Assembly (NCBI RefSeq): GCF_017640745.1
Contig: NZ_JAEPQA010000011.1
Coordinates: forward strand, 1 to 64,000
Length of the DNA: 64,000 nt
From: Nisaea sp.
GTDB taxonomy: Bacteria > Pseudomonadota > Alphaproteobacteria > Thalassobaculales > Thalassobaculaceae
Direction of reading: 5' to 3'
Below are positions 50,272 through 64,000 of this stretch, one piece after another. The stretch's first letter is position 1. Every line of letters begins with the position of its first letter. The notes below the pieces were generated by a model, which saw nothing but the letters and a program-made list of their open reading frames with translations, had not been told where the DNA came from and did not search any database. The translations under genes and the position numbers were made by a program.

Positions 50272-51594
50272 TCAGCCGCCCAGTTCGCGGTCCAGCCAGC
50301 GGGCCGTGCGCAGCAGCTTGCCGTCCTCACCGGGCTTGCCCACCAGCTGAACGCCAAGCGGGAGACCGTCGAGGCTCAGCCGCGGCAGGGACACGCAAGG
50401 CACGCCGAGATAGGTCCAGAGACCGTTGAAGATGGGATTGCCGGTCGAACCGAGGCCTTTGGGCGCCGCGCCGGGGGCCGGAAGACACAGCACCGCGTCA
50501 TAGCGATCCAGCAACGACGCCAGCGCATCGTTGATTTGTCCGCGCGCCAGCTGCGCCTCGACATAATCGCCGGCACGAACGTCGCGGGCCGCGGACAGGC
50601 GCGCTTTCAGCGGATCGCTGACCTTGTCGGGGCTGGCCTCGGCGTCCGGGCCGTAATAGGTCAGCATTTCCGCCGCCATAACCGTGGCATGGAAGGCGAG
50701 GACACGGTCGAACGGAGACGGCAGGCTCTCCCTGACGCAGCGGGCGCCGAGCCCCTCGACCACGCGCTCGATGGCGTCGCGCGCGCCCGCGTCCGCCTGA
50801 GGCCAGGCAGGGGTCTCGAGAAAGGCAAATCTGGGTGCCGGGGCCTCAAGATTCAGATCGGCGGTGAGACTGGAACGGCGGCCGCCGAAGCTGAAGGCAT
50901 CCGTCGCATCGAACGCCGCCACGCTGTCCGCGATCAGCGCCAGATCCTCGACGGAACGGCCGTAGACCCCGACCGTGTCGAGTGTATGCGACTGCATCAG
51001 CACGCCCTCGCGCGCGATCAGTCCAAGCGACGGCTTCAGGGCATGGATGCCATTGAACGAACCGGGCCGGATGACCGACCCGGCAGTCTGGGTTCCGAGC
51101 GCGAGCGTGACCTGGAAATCCGCGACCGCGGCCGCCGAGCCCGCGGACGATCCCCCCGGCGTATGCTCCGGATTGTGCGGATTGCGGGTCTTGCTCGGAC
51201 AGGTGTTCGCGAGCTCGGTGGTCACCGTCTTGCCCATGATCACCGCGCCGGCATTGCGCAGCCGGGCGACGCACGCGGCGTCGCGCCCCGTCCGCTGCCC
51301 GCGATAGAGATCGGAGCCGTTCTCGGTCGGCATGTCGGCGGTCTCGATGATGTCCTTGATGCCGACCGGCAGGCCATGGAGCGGGCCGAGCGCGTTGCCC
51401 GCCTGGCGATGCCGGTCCGCGGCCCGCGCATTGGCGAGTGCCAGCTCGGGATCGAGGAAGGCCCAGGCCCGGACCGTGTCGTCGCGCGCGGCGACTCGGT
51501 CGAGGCAGACGCGCATCAGGTCCTCGGCTGAGGCCTCCCCGGAGGCCAAAACCCGTGCGGCTTCGGACGCTGTCAGCTCGTTCAGTTCGGTCAT
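50272..51594 (-). CDS. Amidase signature family protein
   Basis: This 440-residue amidase has the Ser-cisSer-Lys motif: lysine in LPVGIKDIIETADMPTENGS and serines in HTPGGSSAGSAAAVADF, followed by LGTQTAGSVIRPGSF. ATG at 51594 has GAGG upstream; a start at 51666 in the same frame adds 24 residues and overlaps the glnT/gmaS end. It lies 49 bp after gmaS on the same strand, so it may be the last gene of the mgs-gmaS operon. It differs from the amidase at 38728. Confidence 0.9.
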   Translation of the reverse strand: MTELNELTASEAARVLASGEASAEDLMRVCLDRVAARDDTVRAWAFLDPELALANARAADRHRQAGNALGPLHGLPVGIKDIIETADMPTENGSDLYRGQRTGRDAACVARLRNAGAVIMGKTVTTELANTCPSKTRNPHNPEHTPGGSSAGSAAAVADFQVTLALGTQTAGSVIRPGSFNGIHALKPSLGLIAREGVLMQSHTLDTVGVYGRSVEDLALIADSVAAFDATDAFSFGGRRSSLTADLNLEAPAPRFAFLETPAWPQADAGARDAIERVVEGLGARCVRESLPSPFDRVLAFHATVMAAEMLTYYGPDAEASPDKVSDPLKARLSAARDVRAGDYVEAQLARGQINDALASLLDRYDAVLCLPAPGAAPKGLGSTGNPIFNGLWTYLGVPCVSLPRLSLDGLPLGVQLVGKPGEDGKLLRTARWLDRELGG

Positions 51595-51643
51595 CTGGGA
51601 TTCCTCATCGACGCGGTGAACCGCTATCAGGGCATCCCGATTT

Positions 51644-52951
51644 TCAAATGTCGAGCGTGGTTTCACGTTCCCATTCGGTGAGATGCGCGGTGTAGCTGTT
51701 CCACTCGCCGGTCTTGAGCTTCACATAAGCCGCGGAGAATTCCTTGCCCATCGCCGCGGTCAGCCCCTTGTCGGCTTCGAAGGTCCGGATCGCGTCCAGA
51801 AGGTTGAGCGGCAGCTTCGGCGCATCGGCAGCGAGAGCGGGTTCGGCATACATGTCGTGATCGTAGCGCTTGCCCGGGTCGGCTTTGGCGGCCAGCCCGT
51901 CGAGGCCGGCCGCGATCACCGCCGCCTGCAGCAGATACGGGTTCGCCGCCCCGTCCGGCAGGCGCAGCTCGAACCGCCCCGGCCCCGGCACGCGCACCAT
52001 ATGTGTGCGGTTGTTGCCGGACCAGGTGACCGAGTTCGGCGCCCAGGTCGCGCCCGAGAGCGTCCCGGCGGCATTGATCCGCTTGTAGGAATTCACCGTC
52101 GGGTTGGTGATCGCGGCAAGCGCCCGCGCATGACTCATGATTCCGCCGAGGAAATGCATGCCGTCCTTCGAGAGACCAAGTTCGTCCTTCTTGTCGGCGA
52201 AGACGTTCTCCTTGCCCTTCTTGTCCCAGACCGAGACATGGCAGTGGCAGCCGTTGCCGGTCAGGTGGCTGAAGGGTTTCGGCATGAAGGTGGCGCGCAG
52301 CCCGTGCTTCTCGGCCACCGACTTGACCATGAACTTGAAGAAGGAATGTTTGTCCGCCGTCTTCAGCGCATCATCGAACTCCCAGTTCATCTCGAACTGG
52401 CCGTTGGCGTCCTCATGGTCGTTCTGGTACGGCCCCCAGCCGAGCTCCAGCATGTAGTCGCAGATCTCTGAGATGACGTCGTAGCGCCGCATCACCGCCT
52501 GCTGGTCGTAGCAGGGTTTCACCGCGGTATCGCGCGGATCGGAGATCTCGGAGCCGTCCGGCAGGATGAGAAAGTATTCCGCCTCTACACCGGTCTTCAC
52601 CCGCAGACCCTTCTTCGCCGCTTCATCGACAAGGCGGAGCAGCGTGTTGCGCGGCGCCTGCGCGACCGGTTTCTCCTCCATGAAGCAGTCCGCCGCGACC
52701 CAGGCGACCTCCTTCTTCCAGGGAAGCTGGGTCACCGAGGCCGGATCCGGAACCGCGAAGAGATCCGGATGCGCCGGCGTCATGTCGAGCCAGGTCGCGA
52801 AGCCGGCGAAGCCCGCCCCCTCCTTCTGCATGTCGGCGATGGCGGCGGCCGGGACCAGCTTGGCGCGCTGGGCGCCGAACAGGTCGGTGTAGGAGATCAT
52901 GAAGTATTTGACCCCCTTCTCTTTCGCAAAAGCTGCGAGATCCTTCGTCAT
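51644..52951 (-). CDS. gmaS: Type III glutamine synthetase-like, probable gamma-glutamylmethylamide synthetase
   Basis: This 435-residue GS-family ligase has the N-terminal motif YFMISYTDLFGAQRAKLVPA, the ATP/Glu segment VEAEYFLILPDG, the GNGCHCHVSVWD catalytic region and RVPGPGRFELRLPDGAANPYLL. It matches the GlnT/GmaS group that ligates methylamine to glutamate. It is the last core gene of mgsA-mgsB-mgsC-gmaS, the N-methylglutamate pathway, and the context favours methylamine over ammonia. A true type III glutamine synthetase cannot be excluded. Adenylylation-type control of GSI is not apparent. Confidence 0.85.
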   Translation of the reverse strand: MTKDLAAFAKEKGVKYFMISYTDLFGAQRAKLVPAAAIADMQKEGAGFAGFATWLDMTPAHPDLFAVPDPASVTQLPWKKEVAWVAADCFMEEKPVAQAPRNTLLRLVDEAAKKGLRVKTGVEAEYFLILPDGSEISDPRDTAVKPCYDQQAVMRRYDVISEICDYMLELGWGPYQNDHEDANGQFEMNWEFDDALKTADKHSFFKFMVKSVAEKHGLRATFMPKPFSHLTGNGCHCHVSVWDKKGKENVFADKKDELGLSKDGMHFLGGIMSHARALAAITNPTVNSYKRINAAGTLSGATWAPNSVTWSGNNRTHMVRVPGPGRFELRLPDGAANPYLLQAAVIAAGLDGLAAKADPGKRYDHDMYAEPALAADAPKLPLNLLDAIRTFEADKGLTAAMGKEFSAAYVKLKTGEWNSYTAHLTEWERETTLDI

Positions 52952-53020
52952 GAACCCTCCTAAGTCCCCAATTCTCCCTGTCGATGCGCACGGCGTTCGG
53001 CGCCGCGTCGTTCGGCGTGT

Positions 53021-54349
53021 TCAGAGCCCGGTCTTGCCGGGTATCCAGTCGGTGCCTGCGAGCGGCACACCGGCCATGGCCGAGGCCTCGATGGTCAGCG
53101 CGCAGAGATCCTCCGGTTCGAGATTATGCACGTGGCTCTTGCCGCAGGCGCGCGCGATGGTCTGCGCCTCCAGCGTCATCACCTTGAGGTAATTGGAGAG
53201 GCGCCTCCCGGCCGCGACTGGATCGACCCGCTTCATCAGCTCCGGATCCTGGGTCGAGATGCCCGCCGGATCCCGGCCTTCGTGCCAGTCGTCATAGGCG
53301 CCGGCCGTGGTCCCGAGTTTCTGGTATTCCGCTTCCCATTTCGGATCGTTGTCGCCGATCGCGACCAGCGCCGCCGTGCCGATGGAAACCGCGTCCGCAC
53401 CGAGCGCCAGCGCCTTCGCGACATCCGCGCCGCTGCGCACCCCGCCCGAGACCACGAGCTGGACCTTGCGATGCATGCCGAGCTCCTGCAGCGCCGCGAC
53501 GGCGGGCCGGATGCAGGCGAGCGTCGGCAGGCCGACATGCTCGATGAAGACCTCCTGGGTCGCTGCCGTACCGCCCTGCATGCCGTCCAGCACGACCACG
53601 TCGGCACCTGACTTCACCGCGAGCGCGGTGTCGTAATAGGGGCGTGCGCCTCCGACCTTCACATAGATCGGCTTCTCCCAGTCGGTGATCTCGCGCAGCT
53701 CCTGGATCTTGATCTCGAGATCGTCCGGCCCGGTCCAGTCCGGGTGTCGGCAGGCGGAGCGCTGGTCGATGCCTTCCGGCAGGGTGCGCATCGCGGCCAC
53801 GCGCTCGGAAATCTTCTGGCCGAGCAACATGCCGCCGCCGCCCGGTTTCGCGCCCTGCCCGACCACCACCTCGATCGCGTCGGCGCGGCGGAGATCGCGC
53901 GGGTTCATGCCGTAGCGCGACGGCAGGTACTGGTAGACGAGGATCTCGGAATGGCCGCGCTCCTCCTCCGTCATGCCCCCGTCGCCCGTGGTCGTCGAGG
54001 TGCCGGCGAGGGTCGCGCCGCGGCCGAGCGCTTCCTTCGCAGGGCCTGAGAGCGAGCCGAAACTCATGCCCGCGATGGTGATCGGGATCTTCAGCTCGAT
54101 CGGCTTCTTCGCGAAGCGGGTGCCGAGCACGACATTGGTGCCGCAGGCCTCGCGGTAGCCTTCCAGCGGGTAGCGCGAGATCGAGGCGCCGAGGAACAGC
54201 AGGTCATCGAAATGCGGCACCTTGCGCTTCGCCCCGCCGCCCCGGATGTCGTAGATCCCGGTCGCCGCCGCACGGCGGATCTCGGAGAGCGTATAGTCGT
54301 CGAAGGTGGCGGACTGGCGCGGGACGGTCGGGGGATTGCTATAGGTCAT
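53021..54349 (-). CDS. mgsC: N-methylglutamate synthase subunit C (glutamate synthase large-chain FMN domain)
   Basis: This 442-residue protein matches the FMN-binding synthase domain of GltB: FDDLLFLGASISRYPLEGYR, GMSFGSLSGPAKEALG, DVVVLDGMQGGTAATQEVF and the FMN-phosphate loop SGGVRSGADVAKALALGADAVSIG. In MgsC/GlxD-type systems it forms the core of N-methylglutamate synthase. It follows mgsB by 10 bp. C-terminal cysteines are compatible with a 3Fe-4S-type region but I cannot count a full ligand set. Confidence 0.88.
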   Translation of the reverse strand: MTYSNPPTVPRQSATFDDYTLSEIRRAAATGIYDIRGGGAKRKVPHFDDLLFLGASISRYPLEGYREACGTNVVLGTRFAKKPIELKIPITIAGMSFGSLSGPAKEALGRGATLAGTSTTTGDGGMTEEERGHSEILVYQYLPSRYGMNPRDLRRADAIEVVVGQGAKPGGGGMLLGQKISERVAAMRTLPEGIDQRSACRHPDWTGPDDLEIKIQELREITDWEKPIYVKVGGARPYYDTALAVKSGADVVVLDGMQGGTAATQEVFIEHVGLPTLACIRPAVAALQELGMHRKVQLVVSGGVRSGADVAKALALGADAVSIGTAALVAIGDNDPKWEAEYQKLGTTAGAYDDWHEGRDPAGISTQDPELMKRVDPVAAGRRLSNYLKVMTLEAQTIARACGKSHVHNLEPEDLCALTIEASAMAGVPLAGTDWIPGKTGL

Positions 54350-54359
54350 CTGTCCGTCC

Positions 54360-55046
54360 TCAGTAGGCGTCGGCGTTGTCGATGTTGAAATTGTAGAGCT
54401 GGCGGGCGGAGCCGTAGCGGGTGAACTCCTCCGGCTTCACATCCGTGATCCCGGCGCGCTCAAGAAGATCGGCCAGAAGCTCCAGATGCTTCGGCTTCAT
54501 CTTCTTTTTCACGCAGTCGGCCCCGAGGCTCTTCACCTTGCCGCGGACGAACAGCTTGGCCTCGTAGAGCGAGTCGCCGAGCGCGTCCCCCGCATCGCCG
54601 AGAACGACGAGCGTGCCGGCCTGGGCCATGAAGGCGGACATGTGGCCGATATTGCCCTTCACGACAATATCGATGCCCTTCATGGAGATGCCGCAACGCG
54701 AGGAGGCGTTGCCCTCGATCACCAGCAGGCCGCCATGTCCGGTCGCTCCCGCATACTGGCTCGCATCGCCCTTCACCACGACGGTGCCCGACATCATGTT
54801 CTCGGCGACGCCCGGCCCGACGCTGCCATGCACGGTGACGGTCGCCTCGGCATTCATGCCGGCGCAGTAGTAGCCGCAGTTCCCGCGCACATCGACAGTG
54901 ACCGGCGCGTCGATCCCGACTGCCACGGCATGCGCGCCGCGCGGGTTCAGCACCTCGAAATCAATCTCGTTCGTACCGGCGGCCACATTGTGCAGCGCCT
55001 GATTCAGTTCGCGGAGCGGCACCTTCGCCAGATCAAAGCTCGGCAT
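54360..55046 (-). CDS. mgsB: N-methylglutamate synthase subunit B (GXGXG domain)
   Basis: This 228-residue protein is the GltB C-terminal GXGXG-repeat domain as a separate chain. Beta-helix-type repeats such as GNCGYYCAGMNAEATVTVHGSVGPGVAENMMSG and GHGGLLVIEGNASSRCGISMKG are visible. It is the MgsB/GlxC component, cotranscribed with mgsA (3-bp gap) and mgsC. No separate catalytic residue is expected. Confidence 0.87.
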   Translation of the reverse strand: MPSFDLAKVPLRELNQALHNVAAGTNEIDFEVLNPRGAHAVAVGIDAPVTVDVRGNCGYYCAGMNAEATVTVHGSVGPGVAENMMSGTVVVKGDASQYAGATGHGGLLVIEGNASSRCGISMKGIDIVVKGNIGHMSAFMAQAGTLVVLGDAGDALGDSLYEAKLFVRGKVKSLGADCVKKKMKPKHLELLADLLERAGITDVKPEEFTRYGSARQLYNFNIDNADAY

Positions 55047-55049
55047 TGC

Positions 55050-55946
55050 TCAATGCTCCCAGAAATATACGGTTGCCGGCTCCGGCTCCCAGACCCGCGC
55101 ATTCGCGATCCCGGGCAGGCCGACCAGCGCGCGGTATTCGGAGCCGAAGGCGACATATTCGTCGGTCTCGGCCATCACCGCCGGCTTGCAGGCGATCGGA
55201 TCGCGCAGCACGCCGAAGCCCGACTTGGTGCCGACGACGAAGGTATAGAAACCGTCAAGATCGCTGAGGCCGCTTTCGAGCGCCGCGCCGAGATTCTGTC
55301 CCTCCGCCAGCTTGTGGCTGAGATAGGCCGCCGCGACCTCGGTGTCGTTCTCGGTCTCGAAACGGAGCCCCGCCTTGATCAGCTCGCGGCGCAGATTGTT
55401 GTGGTTGGAGAGCGAGCCGTTATGGACGAGGCACTGGTCCGGCCCGGTCGAGAAGGGATGCGCGCCGAAGGTCGTCACGGCGGATTCCGTCGCCATCCTT
55501 GTGTGGCCGATGCCGTGAGTGCCGCTCATCTTGCCGATGCCGAACCGCTCGGCCACGTCCTTCGGCAGCCCCACCTCCTTGAAGATCTCGACGCTCTCGC
55601 CCCGTCCCATGACGGTGATCCCGGGCCGGAGTTCTTTCAGCGCATCGCGCGCCGTATCCAGCTTTTCCGCCGCGAGCGAGATCACGGCATGGGTCGCCCG
55701 TACATCGACGGAGACCTCCGTGCCGATCTTCTTGGAGAGCGCCGCTCCGAGGCCCTTGAAGTCGCTTTTCGGATCGGCCGACTGGACGGTGATCTTGCCC
55801 GCACCTTTCGCGGACGGGCCATAGATCGCGATCCCGGCGCTGTCCGGACCGCGGTCGGTCATGGTGATCAGCATGTCCGAAAGCAGCGCGCCGAGCCTCG
55901 GCTCCAGCGCCTTGTCCTTCAGAAACAATCCAACGATGCCGCACAT
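55050..55946 (-). CDS. mgsA: N-methylglutamate synthase subunit A (class II glutamine amidotransferase)
   Basis: This 298-residue Ntn-hydrolase glutaminase domain starts MCGIVGLFLKDK, so Cys2 is the nucleophile; the ATG at 55946 must be the start and a TTG three codons upstream would hide the Cys. GGAGG lies 9 nt upstream. Other class II features: GIGHTRMATES and NGSLSNHNNLR. In the pathway it takes gamma-glutamylmethylamide or glutamine. First gene of the mgsABC-gmaS run behind a perfect dyad. Confidence 0.9.
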   Translation of the reverse strand: MCGIVGLFLKDKALEPRLGALLSDMLITMTDRGPDSAGIAIYGPSAKGAGKITVQSADPKSDFKGLGAALSKKIGTEVSVDVRATHAVISLAAEKLDTARDALKELRPGITVMGRGESVEIFKEVGLPKDVAERFGIGKMSGTHGIGHTRMATESAVTTFGAHPFSTGPDQCLVHNGSLSNHNNLRRELIKAGLRFETENDTEVAAAYLSHKLAEGQNLGAALESGLSDLDGFYTFVVGTKSGFGVLRDPIACKPAVMAETDEYVAFGSEYRALVGLPGIANARVWEPEPATVYFWEH

Positions 55947-56008
55947 GGCCGGCAACCTCCGTTACGTGGTCTCGAACGGACGTTAGCAGGCGGCTCAGAA
56001 GAGCACAA

Positions 56009-56035
56009 TTCTGAAGAAACAAATTTTCTTCAGAA
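56009..56035. promoter_or_regulatory. Perfect 11-bp dyad, operator candidate for the mgs-gmaS operon
   Basis: TTCTGAAGAAA (56009-56019) and TTTCTTCAGAA (56025-56035) are exact reverse complements with a 5-bp spacer. The right arm also nests a smaller palindrome TTCTTC-A-GAAGAA (56026-56038). The dyad sits 63-90 bp before the mgsA start and just after the XRE-cupin gene, whose product is the obvious candidate to bind it. Confidence 0.7.
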
Positions 56036-56046
56036 GAATATTACGT

Positions 56047-56721
56047 TCACTCGGATCCGGAGCGCTGGGGATAGGAGATGATCGAGAGATAGCGGATCGG
56101 CCGCCGGATCAGTTCCTCCGGCCCGTGCGGCGCGTCGGCATCGAAGAACAGGCTGTCGCCCGGCAGCATCCGGTAGGTCGCGTCCCCGTGCCGGTAGAGC
56201 AGTTCCCCTGCCAGCATGTAGATCAGCTCGGTTCCGGGGTGCTGGAAGGTCGGAAAAACGTCAGAATCCTCTGACAGCGTGATCAGGTAGGGCTCGACCA
56301 GCACGCCGCTGGTATTGCCCTCAAGATAGCCGAGGAGATTGTACTGGTGTCCGGCTCGGGTCCCCCGGCGTTCGACCTGCACCCCCTCGCCTGCTTTCAC
56401 GAAGACCGCGTTGCGCGGCTCTTCGAAACGCTTGAAGAGATCGGTGATCGGCACGCCGAGGGCACGGGCGACGGATTGCAGCGTGGTCAGCGAGGGTGAG
56501 ATCGCGCCGTTCTCGATCTTCGACAGCATGCCGACGGAAAGCCCGGTCGTGCTTGCGAGATCCGCCACCGTGATGCCGAGCGCCTTGCGGAACTCGCGAA
56601 CCTCCCGGCCGATGGCCAGTTCGAGATTGTTCTCCGCGGGCTCCTTGACCGCATGCGGATCCTGCGCGAGCGCGAGCTTGCGTTCCTTGGCCTTTCCCGG
56701 CTTTCCTGCTTGCGATGCCAT
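56047..56721 (-). CDS. XRE-type HTH regulator with C-terminal cupin domain
   Basis: This 224-residue protein has an N-terminal basic lead, a lambda-repressor-like HTH (about residues 30-85, ITVADLASTTGLSVGMLSKIENGAISPSLTTLQSVARAL) and a C-terminal cupin domain (about 130-220) with the usual YMLAGELLYRHGDATYRMLPGDSLFFDADAPHG motifs. Such proteins often sense amine or amino acid ligands in the cupin. It lies directly upstream of the mgsA operator candidate and downstream of the nucleoside hydrolase gene, which ends 6 bp from its start. Confidence 0.92.
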   Translation of the reverse strand: MASQAGKPGKAKERKLALAQDPHAVKEPAENNLELAIGREVREFRKALGITVADLASTTGLSVGMLSKIENGAISPSLTTLQSVARALGVPITDLFKRFEEPRNAVFVKAGEGVQVERRGTRAGHQYNLLGYLEGNTSGVLVEPYLITLSEDSDVFPTFQHPGTELIYMLAGELLYRHGDATYRMLPGDSLFFDADAPHGPEELIRRPIRYLSIISYPQRSGSE

Positions 56722-56727
56722 GGTGCC

Positions 56728-57639
56728 TCAGGAATACCGCGCGAGGCGGTCGAGCAGGCGGGAAAGGAATTCGGGCGCGTCGATCTCCATGATCACCGTC
56801 GCGTTCGGAGCGCCGTCGCCCGCCGTATGCACGATGCTGCGCCCGGCCTCCTCGCCCTCGGTCACAATCTCCACCCGCCGTTCCTCGCCGGAGAAGAGCT
56901 CCGGCCAGAGCAGGGAGCCTACCGTCAGAACATCGTGCAGCGCCGGATCGTTGTCACTGTCGTAGAAGGTCAACATTCCGGCGGCGGTATCGCCGACCTT
57001 CGTGCCGAGCGCCCGGAGCTCGGCGATCCAGTCCGGCTTCGCGCGCACCTGGTGGGTGACGTTGAGCCCGTGCATGACGATCGGCGCGCCGCTCTCGAAG
57101 ACGATGCGGGCGGCATGCGGGTCGACATGGAAATTGAACTCGGCATGGGGCGTGATGTTGCCCCGTCCGGTGCTCCCCCCCATCAGCACGATGGAGGAGA
57201 CCTCGTCCGCCAGTTCGGGACGCGCCACGAGAGCATGCGCGACATTGGTCAGCGGCCCGACCGGGAGCAGCTTGGTCCCGCCGGGCGCGGCAGCGAGTTC
57301 CCGCCGCAAAACATCGGCGCCATGCCCGTCCGCCAGCCTCGAGGCCGGTTCCGGCAGCTCGCTGCCGTCGAGACCGGTCTTGCCGTGCACGTCGTCCGCC
57401 GTCACCAGAGGCTTCAGAAGAGGGCGCGGACAACCGGCATGGATCGGGATCTCGTGACGCCCCGCCAGGTCCCGGATTCGCCGTGCATTGGCCTCGGTCC
57501 GGTGCAGCGGAACATTGCCGGCTACCGTGGTGATCGCCTTCACATCGATCTCTTCCGGGCTGGCGAACGCGAGCAGCAGAGCCACCGCGTCGTCAATTCC
57601 CGGATCGCAGTCAATGATGATAGAATCGCGCTTTGTCAT
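56728..57639 (-). CDS. Nucleoside hydrolase
   Basis: This 303-residue IunH-type hydrolase cleaves the N-glycosidic bond of ribonucleosides. The Ca2+-binding aspartate cluster is IIIDCDPGIDDAVALLLAF (residues 7-25), and the family's VAGNVPL segment and MHGLNVTHQV catalytic region follow. It lies 6 bp upstream of the XRE-cupin gene on the same strand. Base preference cannot be read. Its link to methylamine metabolism is unclear; it may be co-regulated for nitrogen recovery. Confidence 0.92.
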   Translation of the reverse strand: MTKRDSIIIDCDPGIDDAVALLLAFASPEEIDVKAITTVAGNVPLHRTEANARRIRDLAGRHEIPIHAGCPRPLLKPLVTADDVHGKTGLDGSELPEPASRLADGHGADVLRRELAAAPGGTKLLPVGPLTNVAHALVARPELADEVSSIVLMGGSTGRGNITPHAEFNFHVDPHAARIVFESGAPIVMHGLNVTHQVRAKPDWIAELRALGTKVGDTAAGMLTFYDSDNDPALHDVLTVGSLLWPELFSGEERRVEIVTEGEEAGRSIVHTAGDGAPNATVIMEIDAPEFLSRLLDRLARYS

Positions 57640-58289: not shown

Positions 58290-60476
58290 TCAGAACTTCG
58301 CGGTCATGGTCAGCATGAAGGTGCGCGGACGCCCCTGCAGCAGGTAGTTCGCCCCCGGGAAACCGCCGGTCGATTTCCAGTAGGATTCGTCGGTCACGTT
58401 GTCGATCCGGCCGCGGAAGGTCACCGGCACTTCGTAGAGCTGGGCGACATAGCGCACACCGAGATCGAGGGTCGTCCAGCTGTCGAGCTCGGCCGTATTG
58501 GCCTCGTTCACATACTGCTCGCCCGTATAGGTCACACGGCCGTCCAGGGTCAGCCCCTCGACATAGGGCAGGTCCCACTCGGCGAGGAAGGTACCCTGGA
58601 ACTCCGGCACGCCGATCGCCTTGTTACCCTCGTTGGTGCCGCCCTCCGTTTTTTCCAGCTCGGCGTCGACGAAGGTCACGCCGCCAAGCAGGCGGACGCC
58701 CTCCATCGGCTCGCCGAAGACGGTGAGCTCGATCCCACGGTTCCGTTGCTCGCCGTTGGCCTTGTAGGTCTGGTTCTCGACGATTGCGTTCTGCTGGGTG
58801 ATGGAGAAGACGCTCGCGGTCGCCCCGAAGGTTCCGAGATCGTACTTCACGCCGACCTCGATCTGCTCGCTCTTGAACGGCTCGAGCGCCTCGCCGGCGT
58901 TGGTGATTGCCGTCCCGCCACTCGTGGCCGGCGCGATCTCGCCCGGCTGCAACGCCTCGGCATAATTGCCGTAGAGCGAGAGGTTGGGCAGGGCCTTGTA
59001 GACGATCCCGAGAGCCGGGGTGATCGCCTCGTCCGAATATGACGACGCTTCCGCACCCGTGTTGTAGTTGAAGGTCTTGGTCTCGATCTGCTGGTAGCGG
59101 ACGCCAAGCGTGGTCAGCAGCCGGTCATCGAAGAAGCCGAGCGTATCGGCAAGCGCGACACTCGAATTCGTCGTCTCCTCCGTTTTCAGCGGATTGTCGA
59201 GATCGCCGCCGATGAAGAAATTCGCATCCGGAGCCACGACATCGACCGGATTGTAGAGGTTGTTGGAGAAACCGGAGAAATTGGAGAACGCATAGGCGTT
59301 CTTGCTTTCGAGATGCGTCGCGGAGACCGAGGCAACCACCCGGTGACCCACCGGCCCCGTACGGAACTCGCCGCGCACGCCGGCATCGCCGGAGACGACG
59401 CTATCCTCGCGCGTATTGTCGAAGCGATAGGCCGTGAGTGTGCCGTCGGCCGTCGATCGCGGGTTGGCCAGCACATTCGCTTCGTCGCCGTCACGCATGC
59501 CGCCCGCGAGCCAAACAGTCACATGGTCGGTCACGTCGAACTCGCCGCGGACCGCGCCGAAGAGCTGCTGCTCGTCCGCATAGGTCCAGTCCTGGGCATA
59601 GTTGGTCGTGCTGTCCGGCGCATCGGGCACGTCGCCGAGCGGCGTCACTTGCGGGCGCGGAGAGTCGATGCGGTTGTCCTGGAAACCGAGATCGGCGGAG
59701 AAGCGAAAGCGCTCACCCGCGTAATCGGTGCCGAGAGAGGTCGCGAGCAGGCTGCGCTCCTCGTCATCCACCGCGGTTTCGCCGTCGCGCCCCACGACAT
59801 TGAGGCGGAGCCCCCATTCCTTCGACGGACCGAAACGCTCGCCGAGATCGATGGCGCCGAGAAACTGGCTATCGCTTTCGACGCCGCCCGTGACACTGCG
59901 GATACCTTCGTCCGGTGCCCGCTTCGGCACCAGATTGACGGTGCCGCCGACCGCGCTGCCGCCCGGCGCCGCGCCGTTGATGAAGGCATTGGCGCCGCGG
60001 AACACCTCGACGCGCTCCATCAGGCTGGCGGAGACGAACTGGCGCGGCAGGATTCCGTAGAGGCCGTTCAGCGTGATGTCGTCCGAATAGACCGGGAAGC
60101 CGCGGATGACATAGACCTCCTGGAAATTGCCGAAGCCCTTGGCGATGCGGACGGTCGGATCGTTCTTCAGCACATCGCCGATGCTGTCGGCCTGCTGGTT
60201 CTCGATCAGCTCCTGGGTATAGGCGCTGCCGCTGAAGGGAGATTCGAGGAAATCGAGATTGCCGAGCAGGCCCGCCCGGCCGCCGGTTGCGACCTGTCCG
60301 CCGGCATAGGGCTCCGTCAGTTCGACCTGCGAGCCCTCGACCACGATCGGTTTCAGTGTCTCGGTTGCTGACTTGCTCGAACTGTCCTGCGCCTTCGCGG
60401 CACCATGCGCCAGAATCGCCGTCGCCGCCGCGAAGAGAAGCGTGACCTTCCCGCTCTTAACTTTCCACATGAACAC
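58290..60476 (-). CDS. TonB-dependent siderophore receptor
   Basis: This 728-residue outer-membrane receptor has a signal peptide (cleavage near AKAQ), a plug domain (IGDVLKNDPTVRIAKGFGNFQEVYVIRGFPV and a FRGANAFINGAAPGGSAVGGTVNLVPKR motif typical of siderophore receptors) and a 22-strand-type beta-barrel ending in Phe. It would import an iron-siderophore, species unknown. A Fur-box-like site lies upstream. No TonB-ExbBD or siderophore biosynthesis gene adjoins it. Confidence 0.93.
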   Translation of the reverse strand: MFMWKVKSGKVTLLFAAATAILAHGAAKAQDSSSKSATETLKPIVVEGSQVELTEPYAGGQVATGGRAGLLGNLDFLESPFSGSAYTQELIENQQADSIGDVLKNDPTVRIAKGFGNFQEVYVIRGFPVYSDDITLNGLYGILPRQFVSASLMERVEVFRGANAFINGAAPGGSAVGGTVNLVPKRAPDEGIRSVTGGVESDSQFLGAIDLGERFGPSKEWGLRLNVVGRDGETAVDDEERSLLATSLGTDYAGERFRFSADLGFQDNRIDSPRPQVTPLGDVPDAPDSTTNYAQDWTYADEQQLFGAVRGEFDVTDHVTVWLAGGMRDGDEANVLANPRSTADGTLTAYRFDNTREDSVVSGDAGVRGEFRTGPVGHRVVASVSATHLESKNAYAFSNFSGFSNNLYNPVDVVAPDANFFIGGDLDNPLKTEETTNSSVALADTLGFFDDRLLTTLGVRYQQIETKTFNYNTGAEASSYSDEAITPALGIVYKALPNLSLYGNYAEALQPGEIAPATSGGTAITNAGEALEPFKSEQIEVGVKYDLGTFGATASVFSITQQNAIVENQTYKANGEQRNRGIELTVFGEPMEGVRLLGGVTFVDAELEKTEGGTNEGNKAIGVPEFQGTFLAEWDLPYVEGLTLDGRVTYTGEQYVNEANTAELDSWTTLDLGVRYVAQLYEVPVTFRGRIDNVTDESYWKSTGGFPGANYLLQGRPRTFMLTMTAKF

Positions 60477-60589: not shown

Positions 60590-62002
60590 TCAGAAGAGGG
60601 AGAAATATTCCCGTTCTTCCCATTCGGAGACCGCCTGGGCGTACCGGTCCCACTCCGCCTGCTTGATGCGGGAATAGTAATCGACATAGGCGTCGCCGAG
60701 CGCGGCGCGGAAGAAGCTGCTCCCGCGGAACAGGGCGAGCGCCTGATCGAGACTGGTGGGAAGACGCGCGGCATCGCTCTCGTAAGGGCGCTCGACGGGC
60801 GCCGGCGCCTCAAGCCCGCGCTCGACCCCATCGAGACCGGCGAGGATCTGCGAGGCGATATAGAGATAGGGGTTCGCCGCCGGCTCGCCGATACGATTCT
60901 CGATCCGGCTGGCGCCATCGCCCGGACGGGCGAGCGCCCGGATCATCGCGCCCTTGTTGTCCCTCCCCCATTGCACCCGGTCGGGCGCGAGTGTGAAGGG
61001 GCGGTAGCGCTTGTAGCCGTTCACCGTCGGGGTCGAGAGCAGGCAACCCTCGGCGGCATGTTCGAGCAGCCCGGCGACCCAGCTGCGGCCAGGTTTGGAG
61101 AGCGCCTCGCCCTCCTCCGGCACCATCAGATTGTCGCCGCTCTCGAGATCGACCAGCGACTGGTGCAGATGCCAGCCGCTTGCCATCGCATCCTTGAATT
61201 TCGGCCGGCACATGAAGGTCGCATGCAGGCCCTCGCGGCGGCAGACCTGCTTCACCATGGAACGGAACAGCACCATGTTGTCGGCATGCTCCGTCGCGGA
61301 CGCCGGGTGGAAGGTCACCTCGCACTGGCTCGGCCCGAACTCGGTCTCGAAGGAGCGCACCGGCAGGCCGAGCGCAACGGCATTGCGGCGGACGAGATCG
61401 AAGACCTCTTCCAGCCGGTCGTAGCGGTCCTCCGTCAGATACTGGTAGCCGTGCGCCAGCAGCTCGGTTTCGGGCGGCGTCTCCGGCTGGCCGGTGTCGT
61501 CATGGCCGAGTTTGGGGTCGATCACGCGCAGTACATGGAATTCGACCTCAAGCCCGGTGACGAGATCGTATCCCTGAGTGTTCAGCTTCTCCACCGCGCG
61601 TCGGAGAATGCCGCGAGAACAAACTTCGAGCGGGTTGCCGTCCGTATCGGTCAGGTCCGCCTGCATCCAACTGGAGTGCGGCGACCAGGGCAGCACCCGG
61701 AACGTCGCGGGATCGGGCCGCATCAGCACATCGCCGGCGCCAGTCAGGCGCCCGGGACCGAATCCGGCATCCTCCTGCCAGACAGGGAAAACCGTGCGGT
61801 GCGAGGTGTCCTTCAGCAGAAGGGTCGAGGTCATGGCGATGCCGGAGCGGAAGGCGCTCTCCAGAGAGTCCGCCATGATCGTCTTGCCGCGCAGGATGCC
61901 GTGCTGGTCCGCGAAGGAGATGCGGACGACCTCCAGCCCCTCTTCCGCAACCCGCTTCAGGACCGCGTCGATGGCGGCCTGCTTGCCGTCTGACGCGGTC
62001 AC
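60590..62002 (-). CDS. Glutamine synthetase-like ligase, candidate gamma-glutamyl-amide synthetase
   Basis: This protein of about 470 residues has GS motifs: LEVEFHVL, ETEFGPSQCEVTF, a PKFKDAMASGWHLHQSL catalytic segment and SRIENRIGEPAANPYLYI. It lacks the GSI adenylylation tyrosine region, as do PuuA, GmaS and TdnQ-type gamma-glutamyl ligases. The GTG start at 62002 overlaps the Rieske gene stop by 3 bases, so it is translationally coupled to it. That coupling suggests the ligase adds glutamate to an amine substrate or product. It is distinct in sequence from the GmaS at 51644. Confidence 0.85.
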   Translation of the reverse strand: MTASDGKQAAIDAVLKRVAEEGLEVVRISFADQHGILRGKTIMADSLESAFRSGIAMTSTLLLKDTSHRTVFPVWQEDAGFGPGRLTGAGDVLMRPDPATFRVLPWSPHSSWMQADLTDTDGNPLEVCSRGILRRAVEKLNTQGYDLVTGLEVEFHVLRVIDPKLGHDDTGQPETPPETELLAHGYQYLTEDRYDRLEEVFDLVRRNAVALGLPVRSFETEFGPSQCEVTFHPASATEHADNMVLFRSMVKQVCRREGLHATFMCRPKFKDAMASGWHLHQSLVDLESGDNLMVPEEGEALSKPGRSWVAGLLEHAAEGCLLSTPTVNGYKRYRPFTLAPDRVQWGRDNKGAMIRALARPGDGASRIENRIGEPAANPYLYIASQILAGLDGVERGLEAPAPVERPYESDAARLPTSLDQALALFRGSSFFRAALGDAYVDYYSRIKQAEWDRYAQAVSEWEEREYFSLF

Positions 62003-63321
62003 GAGAGTGCCGCGTCCCAGCTGCAGGCCGCCCGTCGGCCGGCATCGCGGTCGGTCCAGACCGTCTCCCATGCTTCCGTCGGTCCGATGGCGTCGATCGA
62101 GATCGGCCCCTTCACCTGTTCGGCCGCGGCCTGGTCCAGTACCAGCGGCAACGCGCCCTCGCCGTCCTTGACGCTCTTGATCGCGGACCGGAGCAGGCGG
62201 CGATAGCGCACGATGGCGGCATCGGAAGAGGCCAGATGCTCGTGCCGCCGGTCCTGGATCGCGCCCATCGACTCGACCGCCCACTGATCGTGCACGTTGA
62301 TGTCGAGCCCCATGCCCGTATAGGTCAGGGTCTTCTGCTCTTCCGGATCGTAGCCGTACTGGTTCGTCTTGTTGCGGATCGGCGCGAAATCCGGCAGCCG
62401 GTGTTCCTTGATCCGCTGCTCCCACATCTTCTTCTTGTCGACCGGCGCGCCGAAGCTGGTGAAGACCGAGTACCAGTAGCAATGGGTGTCGTCGACCGGC
62501 ACGTGCCACTGGGTGATCGTCATCTCGTTGGACAGAGGGATGGTGATGGCACAGGGGAAAACCTGGTTGGTCACCCGGACATGACGTTGGCCGTTGCCGA
62601 GATCGCGCAGCGCGATGATGCGGAGGCCGTAGTCAGTCTCCTCCACCTTCAGCTCCGGATTGGCGAATTCGCGCAGCACCTTGGTCATCGGCATGTCGCT
62701 CTGCGCCGCCTTGTCGCGGAACTGCTTGCCGTAGCCGTCCGCCGGATCCTCGTCCTGGAGGAAGCGGTGCAGGAAGGAGGCATGCGCCGGGTCGATGCCG
62801 ATCTCCAGTGCCTGAAGCCAGTTGCACTCCCAGAGCCCCTTGAAAGCGAAGACATGGCTGTCCGGCGCGCGGAAACAATCGAGCGCAGGGAAGGCCGGCG
62901 GCTCGCCCGGCCCCATATAGGTCCAGATGACGCCGGCCTTTTCGACCACAGGATAGCTGGAGATCTTGATGCGCTCGTGCATCTTCGAGTCGTCCGGTTC
63001 CGCCGGTTGCTCGGTGCATTGTCCCGTCTGGTCGAAATGCCAGCCGTGGAACGGACAGCGGATACCGCCATCCTCGAGCCGGCCGTAGCAGAGATCGACG
63101 CCGCGGTGCGGGCAGAAGCGACTCATCAGGCCAAGCGTCTCGTCCTCGCGGCGGAACAGCACCAGATCCTCGCCCATCAGACGGACCGGCACCACCGGGC
63201 GCGGCCCCTCCTCCAGCTCCACGGCAAGCGCGGCGGGCATCCAGTAGCGGCGCAGGACCTGGCCCGCCGGCCGGTCGGCGCCGACCAGCGTGATCTCGTC
63301 GTTCTTTTCCTGGCTCATCAT
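61999..63321 (-). CDS. Rieske non-heme iron oxygenase alpha subunit (ring-hydroxylating or demethylase type)
   Basis: This 440-residue protein has the Rieske ligands C70, H72, C89 and H92 (SRFCPHRG, RCPFHGWH) and the mononuclear iron motif E173-x3-D177-x2-H180-x4-H185 (EIGIDPAHASFLHR). It is a single-subunit alpha-type enzyme; no beta subunit gene follows. It would take electrons from the ferredoxin encoded 40 bp upstream. Substrates of such enzymes include aromatic acids, anilines and quaternary or methyl amines. The GS-like partner points to an amine. ATG at 63321 has GGAG upstream. Confidence 0.9.
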   Translation of the reverse strand: MMSQEKNDEITLVGADRPAGQVLRRYWMPAALAVELEEGPRPVVPVRLMGEDLVLFRREDETLGLMSRFCPHRGVDLCYGRLEDGGIRCPFHGWHFDQTGQCTEQPAEPDDSKMHERIKISSYPVVEKAGVIWTYMGPGEPPAFPALDCFRAPDSHVFAFKGLWECNWLQALEIGIDPAHASFLHRFLQDEDPADGYGKQFRDKAAQSDMPMTKVLREFANPELKVEETDYGLRIIALRDLGNGQRHVRVTNQVFPCAITIPLSNEMTITQWHVPVDDTHCYWYSVFTSFGAPVDKKKMWEQRIKEHRLPDFAPIRNKTNQYGYDPEEQKTLTYTGMGLDINVHDQWAVESMGAIQDRRHEHLASSDAAIVRYRRLLRSAIKSVKDGEGALPLVLDQAAAEQVKGPISIDAIGPTEAWETVWTDRDAGRRAACSWDAALS

Positions 63322-63361
63322 GGCGGAAGTCTCCTTCGTCGAAGACGCGGATGAAAGGCGG

Positions 63362-63694
63362 CTAGTACTGGGTTTCGGGAATGGTGACGGTAAGGCCGTC
63401 CATCTCCGGGGTCAGCTTGATCTGGCAGGAGAGCCGGCTGGTCTCGCGCCGCTCGGCGGCCGCGTCATCCAGCATCGCCAGCTCGTCCTCCTGCGCCGGC
63501 GGCGCGAGCTTCATGCCTTCTTCATCGAGATAGACATGGCAGGTGGCACAGACGCAGCTTCCGCCGCACTCGGCCTCGATGCCCTCGACATCGTTGAAGA
63601 CGGCGGCCTGCATGACGGACTCGCCGGTCTCGGCCTCGACGGTTTCCTGCGTGCCATCCGGCTTCACGAAGGTTACGGAGATCTTCTCTCCCAC
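63362..63694 (-). CDS. [2Fe-2S] ferredoxin, adrenodoxin type
   Basis: This 110-residue electron carrier has cysteines C43-x5-C49-x2-C52 and C90 (ECGGSCVCATCHVY, LSCQI), the adrenodoxin/putidaredoxin spacing, plus an extra C47. It would pass electrons from a reductase to the Rieske oxygenase encoded downstream. No reductase gene is seen in the window, so it may lie to the right or elsewhere. It is the first gene of the cluster and diverges from the IclR-type gene. Confidence 0.93.
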   Translation of the reverse strand: MGEKISVTFVKPDGTQETVEAETGESVMQAAVFNDVEGIEAECGGSCVCATCHVYLDEEGMKLAPPAQEDELAMLDDAAAERRETSRLSCQIKLTPEMDGLTVTIPETQY

Positions 63695-63765
63695 GGCAGC
63701 TCTCTCCTTGCAGGTCCTGACAGGACGCCCGACCCGCTGTTTTGTTTGACCGATTATCGAACATT

Positions 63766-63798
63766 CGGTCTATTATTGATCAAAGACAAAATAGACCG
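63766..63798. promoter_or_regulatory. Perfect 9-bp inverted repeat in the ferredoxin-IclR gap
   Basis: CGGTCTATT (63766-63774) and AATAGACCG (63790-63798) are exact reverse complements, 15 bp apart. A second partial dyad GACCGA (63748-63753) with TCGGTC (63765-63770) and the palindrome CGAA-CA-TTCG (63758-63767) overlap on the left. The cluster lies in the 139-bp divergent gap and is a likely operator for the IclR-type regulator. Confidence 0.7.
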
Positions 63799-63833
63799 CA
63801 GCCATATGGCCCGGTCAAGCCCATGGGAGCACT

Positions 63834-64000
63834 ATGACCGTCCCAGCGCCAGAGAAAGCCGCGCCACATTCCACCGCGATCGCCGACAAGGATATCTCGC
63901 TGACCTTCGCAAAGGGCATGGAGGTGCTGGAAGCCTTCGAGAGCGCGGCCGCTCCCATGACCATTCCCGATCTCGCCCGCCAGACCGGCATCAACCGGTC
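63834..64000 (+). CDS. IclR-type transcriptional regulator, 5' part only
   Basis: The first 55 residues are in the window; the gene runs past 64000. After a variable lead it reads DISLTFAKGMEVLEAFESAAAP and MTIPDLARQTGINR, the start of the IclR winged-helix domain (PcaR/PobR-like). GGGAG precedes the ATG at 63834. It diverges from the ferredoxin-Rieske-GS operon, so it is the likely regulator of that operon. Confidence 0.85.
   Translation, partial: MTVPAPEKAAPHSTAIADKDISLTFAKGMEVLEAFESAAAPMTIPDLARQTGINR

Follow-up and report, generated by a model that had tools for sequence, protein, structure and literature searches.

A sad-type operon of a Rieske oxygenase and a glutamine synthetase-like ligase in Nisaea sp., with an acidic aromatic amine as candidate substrate

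We analyzed a stretch of 64,000 nucleotides from Nisaea sp. (positions 1 to 64,000 of contig NZ_JAEPQA010000011.1, here called the window), at whose right end lie the genes for a [2Fe-2S] ferredoxin, a single-subunit Rieske oxygenase and a glutamine synthetase (GS)-like ligase. This operon belongs to the sad-type kind, which is already known but has been studied little. Judging from sequence comparison, it is probably an arylamine-oxidizing unit that acts on an acidic aromatic amine, the best candidate being the conversion of 4-aminobenzoate to protocatechuate. A sequence-only reading of the window had proposed that the three genes glutamylate an amine and oxidize or demethylate it. The ligase clade and the gene linkage described below support glutamylation and oxidation; no evidence was found for the demethylation option. 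That reading could place the combination in no standard named operon, but Hydrogenophaga has the same set of genes in its published sad operon (PMC5632844). The genes and their motifs, the linkage, the phylogeny, the conserved residues and the presence of PcaHG in the same genome are directly established.

Gene organization

The three genes lie on the minus strand, divergent from a gene for an IclR-family regulator, and family matches and coordinates agree with the earlier description of this layout; each of the four is an open reading frame that matches a protein family. The sadC-like ferredoxin gene (63362-63694; 110 amino acids; Pfam Fer2, 4.8e-11) has a GTG start with AAGGAG upstream, and is located 40 nt upstream of the sadA-like gene for the Rieske non-heme iron oxygenase (61999-63321; 440 amino acids; Pfam Rieske, 1.4e-19, and LigXa_C, 4.3e-33), a protein of the LigXa_C or phthalate-dioxygenase-like type. 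The sadB-like gene for a glutamyl-organic-amine ligase of the GS-like type (60590-62002; 470 amino acids from a GTG) matched Pfam Gln-synt_C at 1.4e-83 when scanned as 60590-62011. The TGA of the oxygenase gene (62001-61999) and the GTG of the ligase gene (62002-62000) overlap as GTGA, which is 4 nt and not the three bases reported earlier. On the plus strand, the IclR-family gene (Pfam IclR_C, 5.6e-35) occupies 63834-64631 of the same contig and so runs past the end of the window at 64000.

The ferredoxin, oxygenase and ligase genes and the divergent IclR gene are kept together in all five same-genus genomes searched, our own included, and for this reason we do not regard the arrangement as due to chance. 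An orthologous operon is present in Nisaea denitrificans DSM 18348. No beta subunit or amidotransferase-like gene is found between the ferredoxin and ligase genes or adjoining them.

The GS-like ligase

The closest solved structure to the ligase is NpaA1 (8wwu), with an E value of 3.1e-127 as compared to 5.4e-55 for the runner-up. NpaA1 is a 1-naphthylamine ligase (PMC11335346). In a tree of 77 sequences, the ligase falls in one clade with all of the oxygenase-linked ligases and the DcaQ-type protein of a chloroaniline plasmid, with E. coli GlnA and PuuA and the remaining five GS encoded by the same genome falling outside. The aniline-type ligase is nested in the oxygenase-linked clade with local supports of 0.994 and 0.941, in trees that were built with FastTree without further tests and that included only one aniline-type ligase. 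Sequence identity is 47.6% to the DcaQ-type protein, 28.9% to the GlnT-like protein of the window and 23.4% to PuuA. We take DcaQ to be the proper name of the pLME1 protein, whose record reads "glutamine synthetase family protein", and GlnT is likewise our assumed name. The NCBIfam scores are far below the curated cut-offs for the PuuA type (251.6 against 650), GlnA (224.6 against 429.15) and type III (229.8 against 469.6), and these scores, together with the separate clade, rule out identity as a type I GS (GSI) or as PuuA. From its sequence, the ligase is of the amine-glutamylating kind, and the earlier likening of the protein to such enzymes holds in that its clade includes NpaA1 and DcaQ but neither GlnA nor PuuA of E. 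coli.

Alignment of 68 ligases, among them the DcaQ-type protein, has six metal-site residues kept in all 68, and the positions of Asp 50 and Glu 327 of ordinary GS altered in all 68. The ligase has the features of the glutamyl-organic-amine synthetases (GoaS), as it groups with NpaA1 and DcaQ, has lost Asp50' and possesses an extra N-terminal loop. In PMC11335346, the GoaS group is described as having lost Asp50' and a Glu357. Our alignment differs, with E357 kept in 68 of 68 and E327 lost, although the numbering or the roles may differ between the two analyses.

In the loop that lines the amine entry of NpaA1, Phe75' was placed by docking among the hydrophobic contacts to the ring (PMC11335346). 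The aligned position is Phe in DcaQ and Lys in all 67 of the oxygenase-linked ligases (64 of them distinct), being Lys 64 in the window; this mapping comes from an alignment in which V68-M81 of PMC11335346 reads as one stretch. An Arg or Lys follows five residues later in 63 of the 67. Such a pattern is to be expected for amines bearing an acid group.

In five loci (L083, L084, L086, L011 and L012), the oxygenase is 64-69% identical to that of the window and the partner ligase only 43-53%. The two proteins diverge at unequal rates in these loci, or the ligase was replaced.

The Rieske oxygenase

The Rieske ligands C70-H72/C89-H92 and the iron-site residues D177, H180 and H185 are all present, so that the ligand set is complete, as had been claimed. 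D357 probably takes the position of the carboxylate ligand. The protein belongs to the phthalate-dioxygenase-like (LigXa_C) class of Rieske oxygenases, having the CxH/CxxH and D-x2-H-x4-H motifs, the LigXa_C domain and the carboxylate-anchoring Arg of that class. Its closest solved structures are isophthalate dioxygenase (IPDO, 9ina) and the group of phthalate dioxygenase (PDO, 7v25), the two scoring 246 and 232 bits. Arg 249 aligns with R234 of IPDO and R244 of PDO, and is invariant in 66 of 66 orthologue rows (64 distinct sequences). Arg234 of IPDO and Arg244 of PDO bind the substrate carboxylate, and replacement of Arg234 abolishes activity; in IPDO, the substrate carbons C3 and C4 are the ones held next to the iron (PMC12445078). 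By analogy, the same placement on a 4-amidobenzoate would put the nitrogen-bearing carbon and its neighbor at the iron.

A ligase of the amine kind next to an oxygenase of the aromatic-acid class suggests an aromatic amine with an acid group. The sequence-only reading had expected the amine interpretation to fail for a ligase grouping with GSI or PuuA and an oxygenase grouping with aromatic-acid enzymes in genomes lacking an adjacent ligase of this type. The outcome is mixed: the ligase is with neither GSI nor PuuA, and the amine interpretation survives; the oxygenase does belong to the aromatic-acid class.

Three of the 66 orthologue rows, from Mesorhizobium xinjiangense, Pseudooceanicola algae and Palleronia sp., form one clade in which the Rieske domain is split off. 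At these loci (L037:4244-5971, L056:12840-14513 and L057:3903-5600), the catalytic open reading frame keeps D..H....H with loss of the [2Fe-2S] ligands, and a separate Rieske open reading frame of 132-146 amino acids with intact ligands is located directly upstream (Pfam was run on the L056 pair only). These clusters also contain a flavodoxin and an FAD reductase. A precedent for such a separation is NdmC/NdmD of caffeine demethylation, in which the Rieske domain was moved onto the reductase (PMC4408171).

The genome itself encodes a second Rieske oxygenase, 32% identical, on contig 77 (L006:8130-10473), divergent from a reductase-like gene and, by eye, near TRAP/TAXI-like transporter genes. 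No GS-like homologue is found near it in a 19-kb stretch.

Linkage of oxygenase and ligase across genomes

Co-occurrence of the two genes across genomes had been suggested as a check, and the ligase is linked wherever an orthologue of the oxygenase, with an aligned identity of roughly 52% or higher, was examined. A ligase was counted as nearby when tblastn found it in the flanking sequence, which spanned about 1.5 kb in the relatives and the phylum sample. Among 61 close relatives, our genome included, all 15 with the oxygenase have the ligase nearby, and among the 397 genomes of a phylum sample all 23 operon genomes do, 22 within the flank and one (G377) with the ligase about 1.5 kb downstream of the oxygenase, beyond the flank first examined. 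Two genomes, G000 and G003, occur in both samples. The same was found in 13 of 13 plasmids, the genes being adjacent in 10 and 1.5 to 6.4 kb apart in 3; these plasmids come from the best 30 of 664 oxygenase records, in which 13 have at least 56.7% identity and the others at most 39.4%. Near distant oxygenase paralogs (about 30-36% identity) no ligase was found in flanks of about 1.5 kb at any of the 14 loci examined (0/7 and 0/7), 7 loci having been examined for the 13 low-scoring oxygenase rows of the phylum sample. Loci L028-L046 had been chosen by their ligase and were left out of these linkage counts, while being included in the residue counts.

Genes for an FAD reductase and a ferredoxin are also present in nine of the 13 plasmid loci, four of the 13 encode a C26-type gamma-glutamyl hydrolase, and one a type-1 glutamine amidotransferase. 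At L051, L056, L057, L037 and L043, the ligase gene is followed directly by one for a small CHMI-like protein, which matched PF02962 in the two cases checked.

The proposed pathway and its substrate

We infer each chemical step of the pathway, its substrate, its electron route and its regulation. The ligase would use ATP and glutamate to form the gamma-glutamyl amide of an aromatic amine with an acid group in para position, 4-aminobenzoate being the most probable one. Electrons would come to the oxygenase from the ferredoxin and from a ferredoxin reductase whose gene lies elsewhere; Arg 249 of the oxygenase would anchor the carboxylate while the ring is dihydroxylated at C3/C4. The unstable dihydroxylated product would then shed the glutamyl amide and rearomatize to protocatechuate, which the protocatechuate 3,4-dioxygenase (PcaHG) of the genome could open.

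The choice of 4-aminobenzoate draws on neighboring and co-occurring genes. The enzyme 4-hydroxylaminobenzoate lyase (PnbB, PF16155) leads 4-nitrobenzoate to protocatechuate. Its gene is present in 5 of the 13 plasmid loci within flanks of 8-12 kb (two of the lyases were checked against Pfam, the other three by similarity), as is a nitroreductase gene in 5 of 13 within the same flanks, and in one plasmid locus (Palleronia) pcaHG adjoins the operon. In the phylum sample, PcaH occurs in 19 of 23 operon genomes as compared to 97 of 397 overall (p 2e-9), and PcaH or LigA in 22 of 23 as compared to 121 of 397 (p 2e-11). Counted by genus, PcaH or LigA is found in 10 of 11 versus 72 of 222 (p 7e-5); this genus count is the extent of the ancestry correction in these tests. 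PnbB is present in 9 of the 397 genomes, 5 of which are operon genomes (p 5e-5; by genus 3/7, p 0.003). The PcaH of the Nisaea genome, on contig 19, scores 354.3 bits against a cut-off of 296.4.

Several observations weigh against this assignment. Shared ancestry confounds the co-occurrence, a single family (f32) accounting for 11 of the 23 operon genomes, and the phylum-sample counts of PcaH, LigA and PnbB are of presence in the genome, with closeness to the operon no part of them. Among the 61 relatives the association is weaker, with PcaH over the cut-off in 12 of 15 operon genomes and in 18 of 46 operon-less ones. Of the three operon relatives below the cut-off, G036 has LigA and two (G018 and G042) have neither, so that with G377 there are three genomes that carry the operon but neither PcaH nor LigA over the cut-off. 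In Nisaea, pcaHG is on a contig other than that of the operon, and PnbB was not found in the genome. Arg 249 is invariant in 16 of 16 paralog rows as well (15 distinct); because paralogs share it, this residue marks the aromatic-acid class and not this substrate. At the position of Arg 339 of ordinary GS, 51 of the 68 ligases have Arg and 17 Lys, the window ligase being among the latter. A homologue of the JS666-type ferredoxin reductase was not found in the window or as far as contig position 77000 (about 13 kb to the right); extension to the right of 64000 had been suggested for finding such a gene. We found no biochemistry for this operon, and the characterized relative, Sad, acts on 4-aminobenzenesulfonate. 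Nor did a literature search, which left subscription journals mostly uncovered and is weak evidence of absence, turn up a paper in which a GS-like ligase and a Rieske oxygenase together oxidize aminobenzoate.

The mechanism could be the same with another acid-bearing arylamine as substrate, such as 3-aminobenzoate, an aminosalicylate, 4-aminophenylacetate or similar, the product passing to another ring-opening enzyme such as the dioxygenase of the catechol/hydroxyquinol type encoded beyond the window. We consider this unlikely, yet the strongest of the alternatives. Lys 64 and Arg 249 point to an acidic arylamine and no further, three operon genomes are without both PcaH and LigA over the cut-off, and genes for an FAD monooxygenase and an intradiol dioxygenase lie about 3 kb to the right of the IclR gene, the latter being retained close by in both N. 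denitrificans and N. nitritireducens. However, intervening genes (by eye an SDR, metA and a PAS-domain gene) separate this module from the operon, and a homologue of the intradiol dioxygenase was not found in the other operon loci compared. PnbB and protocatechuate dioxygenase fit a para-carboxylate and the protocatechuate branch.

It is improbable, in our judgment, that the operon encodes a genuine sulfanilate (4-aminobenzenesulfonate) 3,4-dioxygenase system like that of Hydrogenophaga PBC, although the gene set equals sadABC (PMC5632844) and a homologous Rieske-GS pair is present on pSA3 of the sulfanilate degrader Novosphingobium resinovorum SA1, with a ferredoxin, a reductase and a maleylacetate reductase nearby. 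A single PcaH of the Nisaea genome exceeds the curated cut-off, with no further one that might be of the sulfocatechol type. Sulfanilate is mainly man-made, yet the operon is kept in all five same-genus genomes searched and occurs in numerous further ones. In the view of the authors of the Hydrogenophaga study, the original substrate was probably a natural compound resembling sulfanilate (PMC5632844).

Glutamylation of an alkylamine or N-methyl compound, followed by oxidation or demethylation, is very unlikely. The monomeric Rieske N-demethylases NdmA and NdmB are among the weaker structure matches, but the nearest solved oxygenases are aromatic-acid dioxygenases, the plasmid neighbors include aromatic-acid genes, and the ligase, compared with PuuA, the GlnT-like protein and DcaQ, is far from the first two and nearer to the third; N-demethylation itself was rejected on the grounds of the oxygenase class and the neighbor genes. 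Least probable of all is that two unrelated activities, for instance an aromatic-acid dioxygenase and a detoxifying ligase, share the operon, an idea for which the conjectural coupling chemistry leaves room, but which is opposed by the linkage in every orthologue examined in three samples and by the 4-nt overlap in the window.

Electron supply and regulation

The best homologue of the reductase in the Nisaea genome (40%) is on another contig, contig 55, beside what appear by eye to be ABC-transporter-like genes. No transporter was recognized by eye in the list of open reading frames to the right of the window, where no search was aimed at transporters. In the divergent intergenic region, the palindrome GACCGA-N11-TCGGTC (63748-63770) is a candidate operator, having identical half-sites in five of five same-genus genomes, and the IclR protein may control the operon through it.

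Neighboring genes

Coupling of the operon to the gene for a TonB receptor located downstream (58290-60476) was considered and rejected. A Fur-box-like stretch was read by eye in the 113-nt gap, and the two further Nisaea loci with wide flanks have a counterpart of only 26%. A link with the intradiol dioxygenase past the window end was likewise rejected, as other genes lie in between. This catechol/hydroxyquinol-type dioxygenase, adjoined by the FAD monooxygenase, is at 67546-69619 of the contig (L005:9547-11620), and two further loci of Nisaea have retained it at 76-78%.

A run of minus-strand genes at 50272-56721 of the window encodes an amidase (PF01425), the GlnT-like second GS-like protein, a PuuR-like XRE regulator and three glutamate-synthase-like proteins (large-subunit, GXGXG-like and class II amidotransferase). 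It looks like a separate amine or glutamate unit. In loci of Nisaea, a nucleoside hydrolase gene (56728-57639 in the window) lies within a few kb of the operon, and one that is 42% identical (L042:3393-4316) is directly upstream of the oxygenase gene in a metagenome-assembled genome of the Granulosicoccaceae.

Comparison with known systems

The closest structurally characterized oxygenases, PDO and IPDO, have the same domain class and the aligned carboxylate-anchoring Arg, but at 246 and 232 bits they are well separated from the phylum-sample orthologues, which score at least 491 bits. The aniline systems (AtdA1-A5, TdnQTA1A2B and DcaQTA1A2B) and NpaA1-A5 share a GS-like ligase of the same clade, which in these systems makes a gamma-glutamyl amide before Rieske oxidation (PMC11335346). 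All of them rely on an oxygenase of two subunits, alpha and beta, together with a reductase and an amidotransferase-like protein, whereas the Nisaea operon encodes a single-subunit phthalate-dioxygenase-like oxygenase, and its ligase has Lys in place of Phe in the amine loop. With no beta subunit or amidotransferase-like gene at the operon, membership in the Atd/Tdn/Dca aniline dioxygenase system was rejected.

The sad operon of Hydrogenophaga, consisting of a Rieske oxygenase, a glutamine synthetase and a ferredoxin, is described as deaminating 4-aminobenzenesulfonate to 4-sulfocatechol (PMC5632844). It has the same three components in one operon as Nisaea, namely an oxygenase alpha subunit alone, a GS-like ligase and a [2Fe-2S] ferredoxin. 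The Nisaea operon differs in the order ferredoxin-oxygenase-ligase and in having no reductase beside it, and the likeness is one of gene content and not of comparison with the sequences of SadA and SadB, WP_009515254.1 and WP_009515256.1. For the plasmid pair of Novosphingobium resinovorum SA1, the identities to the window are 59.0% for the oxygenase and 52.2% for the ligase.

This analysis adds a candidate for the natural substrate, a residue that may govern selectivity (Lys 64) and a view of the spread of the family. We tentatively suggest, at somewhat less than even chances, that the operon is a natural and widespread route of the Proteobacteria from 4-aminobenzoate through gamma-glutamyl-4-aminobenzoate to protocatechuate, from which the sad systems were recruited; that the single Lys/Phe loop position sets the choice between acid-bearing and plain anilines; and that the aniline ligases arose inside this clade. 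If true, this would show a way in which 4-aminobenzoate, a building block of folate, is recycled by soil and marine bacteria, and a possible origin of the pollutant-degrading aniline and sulfanilate systems.

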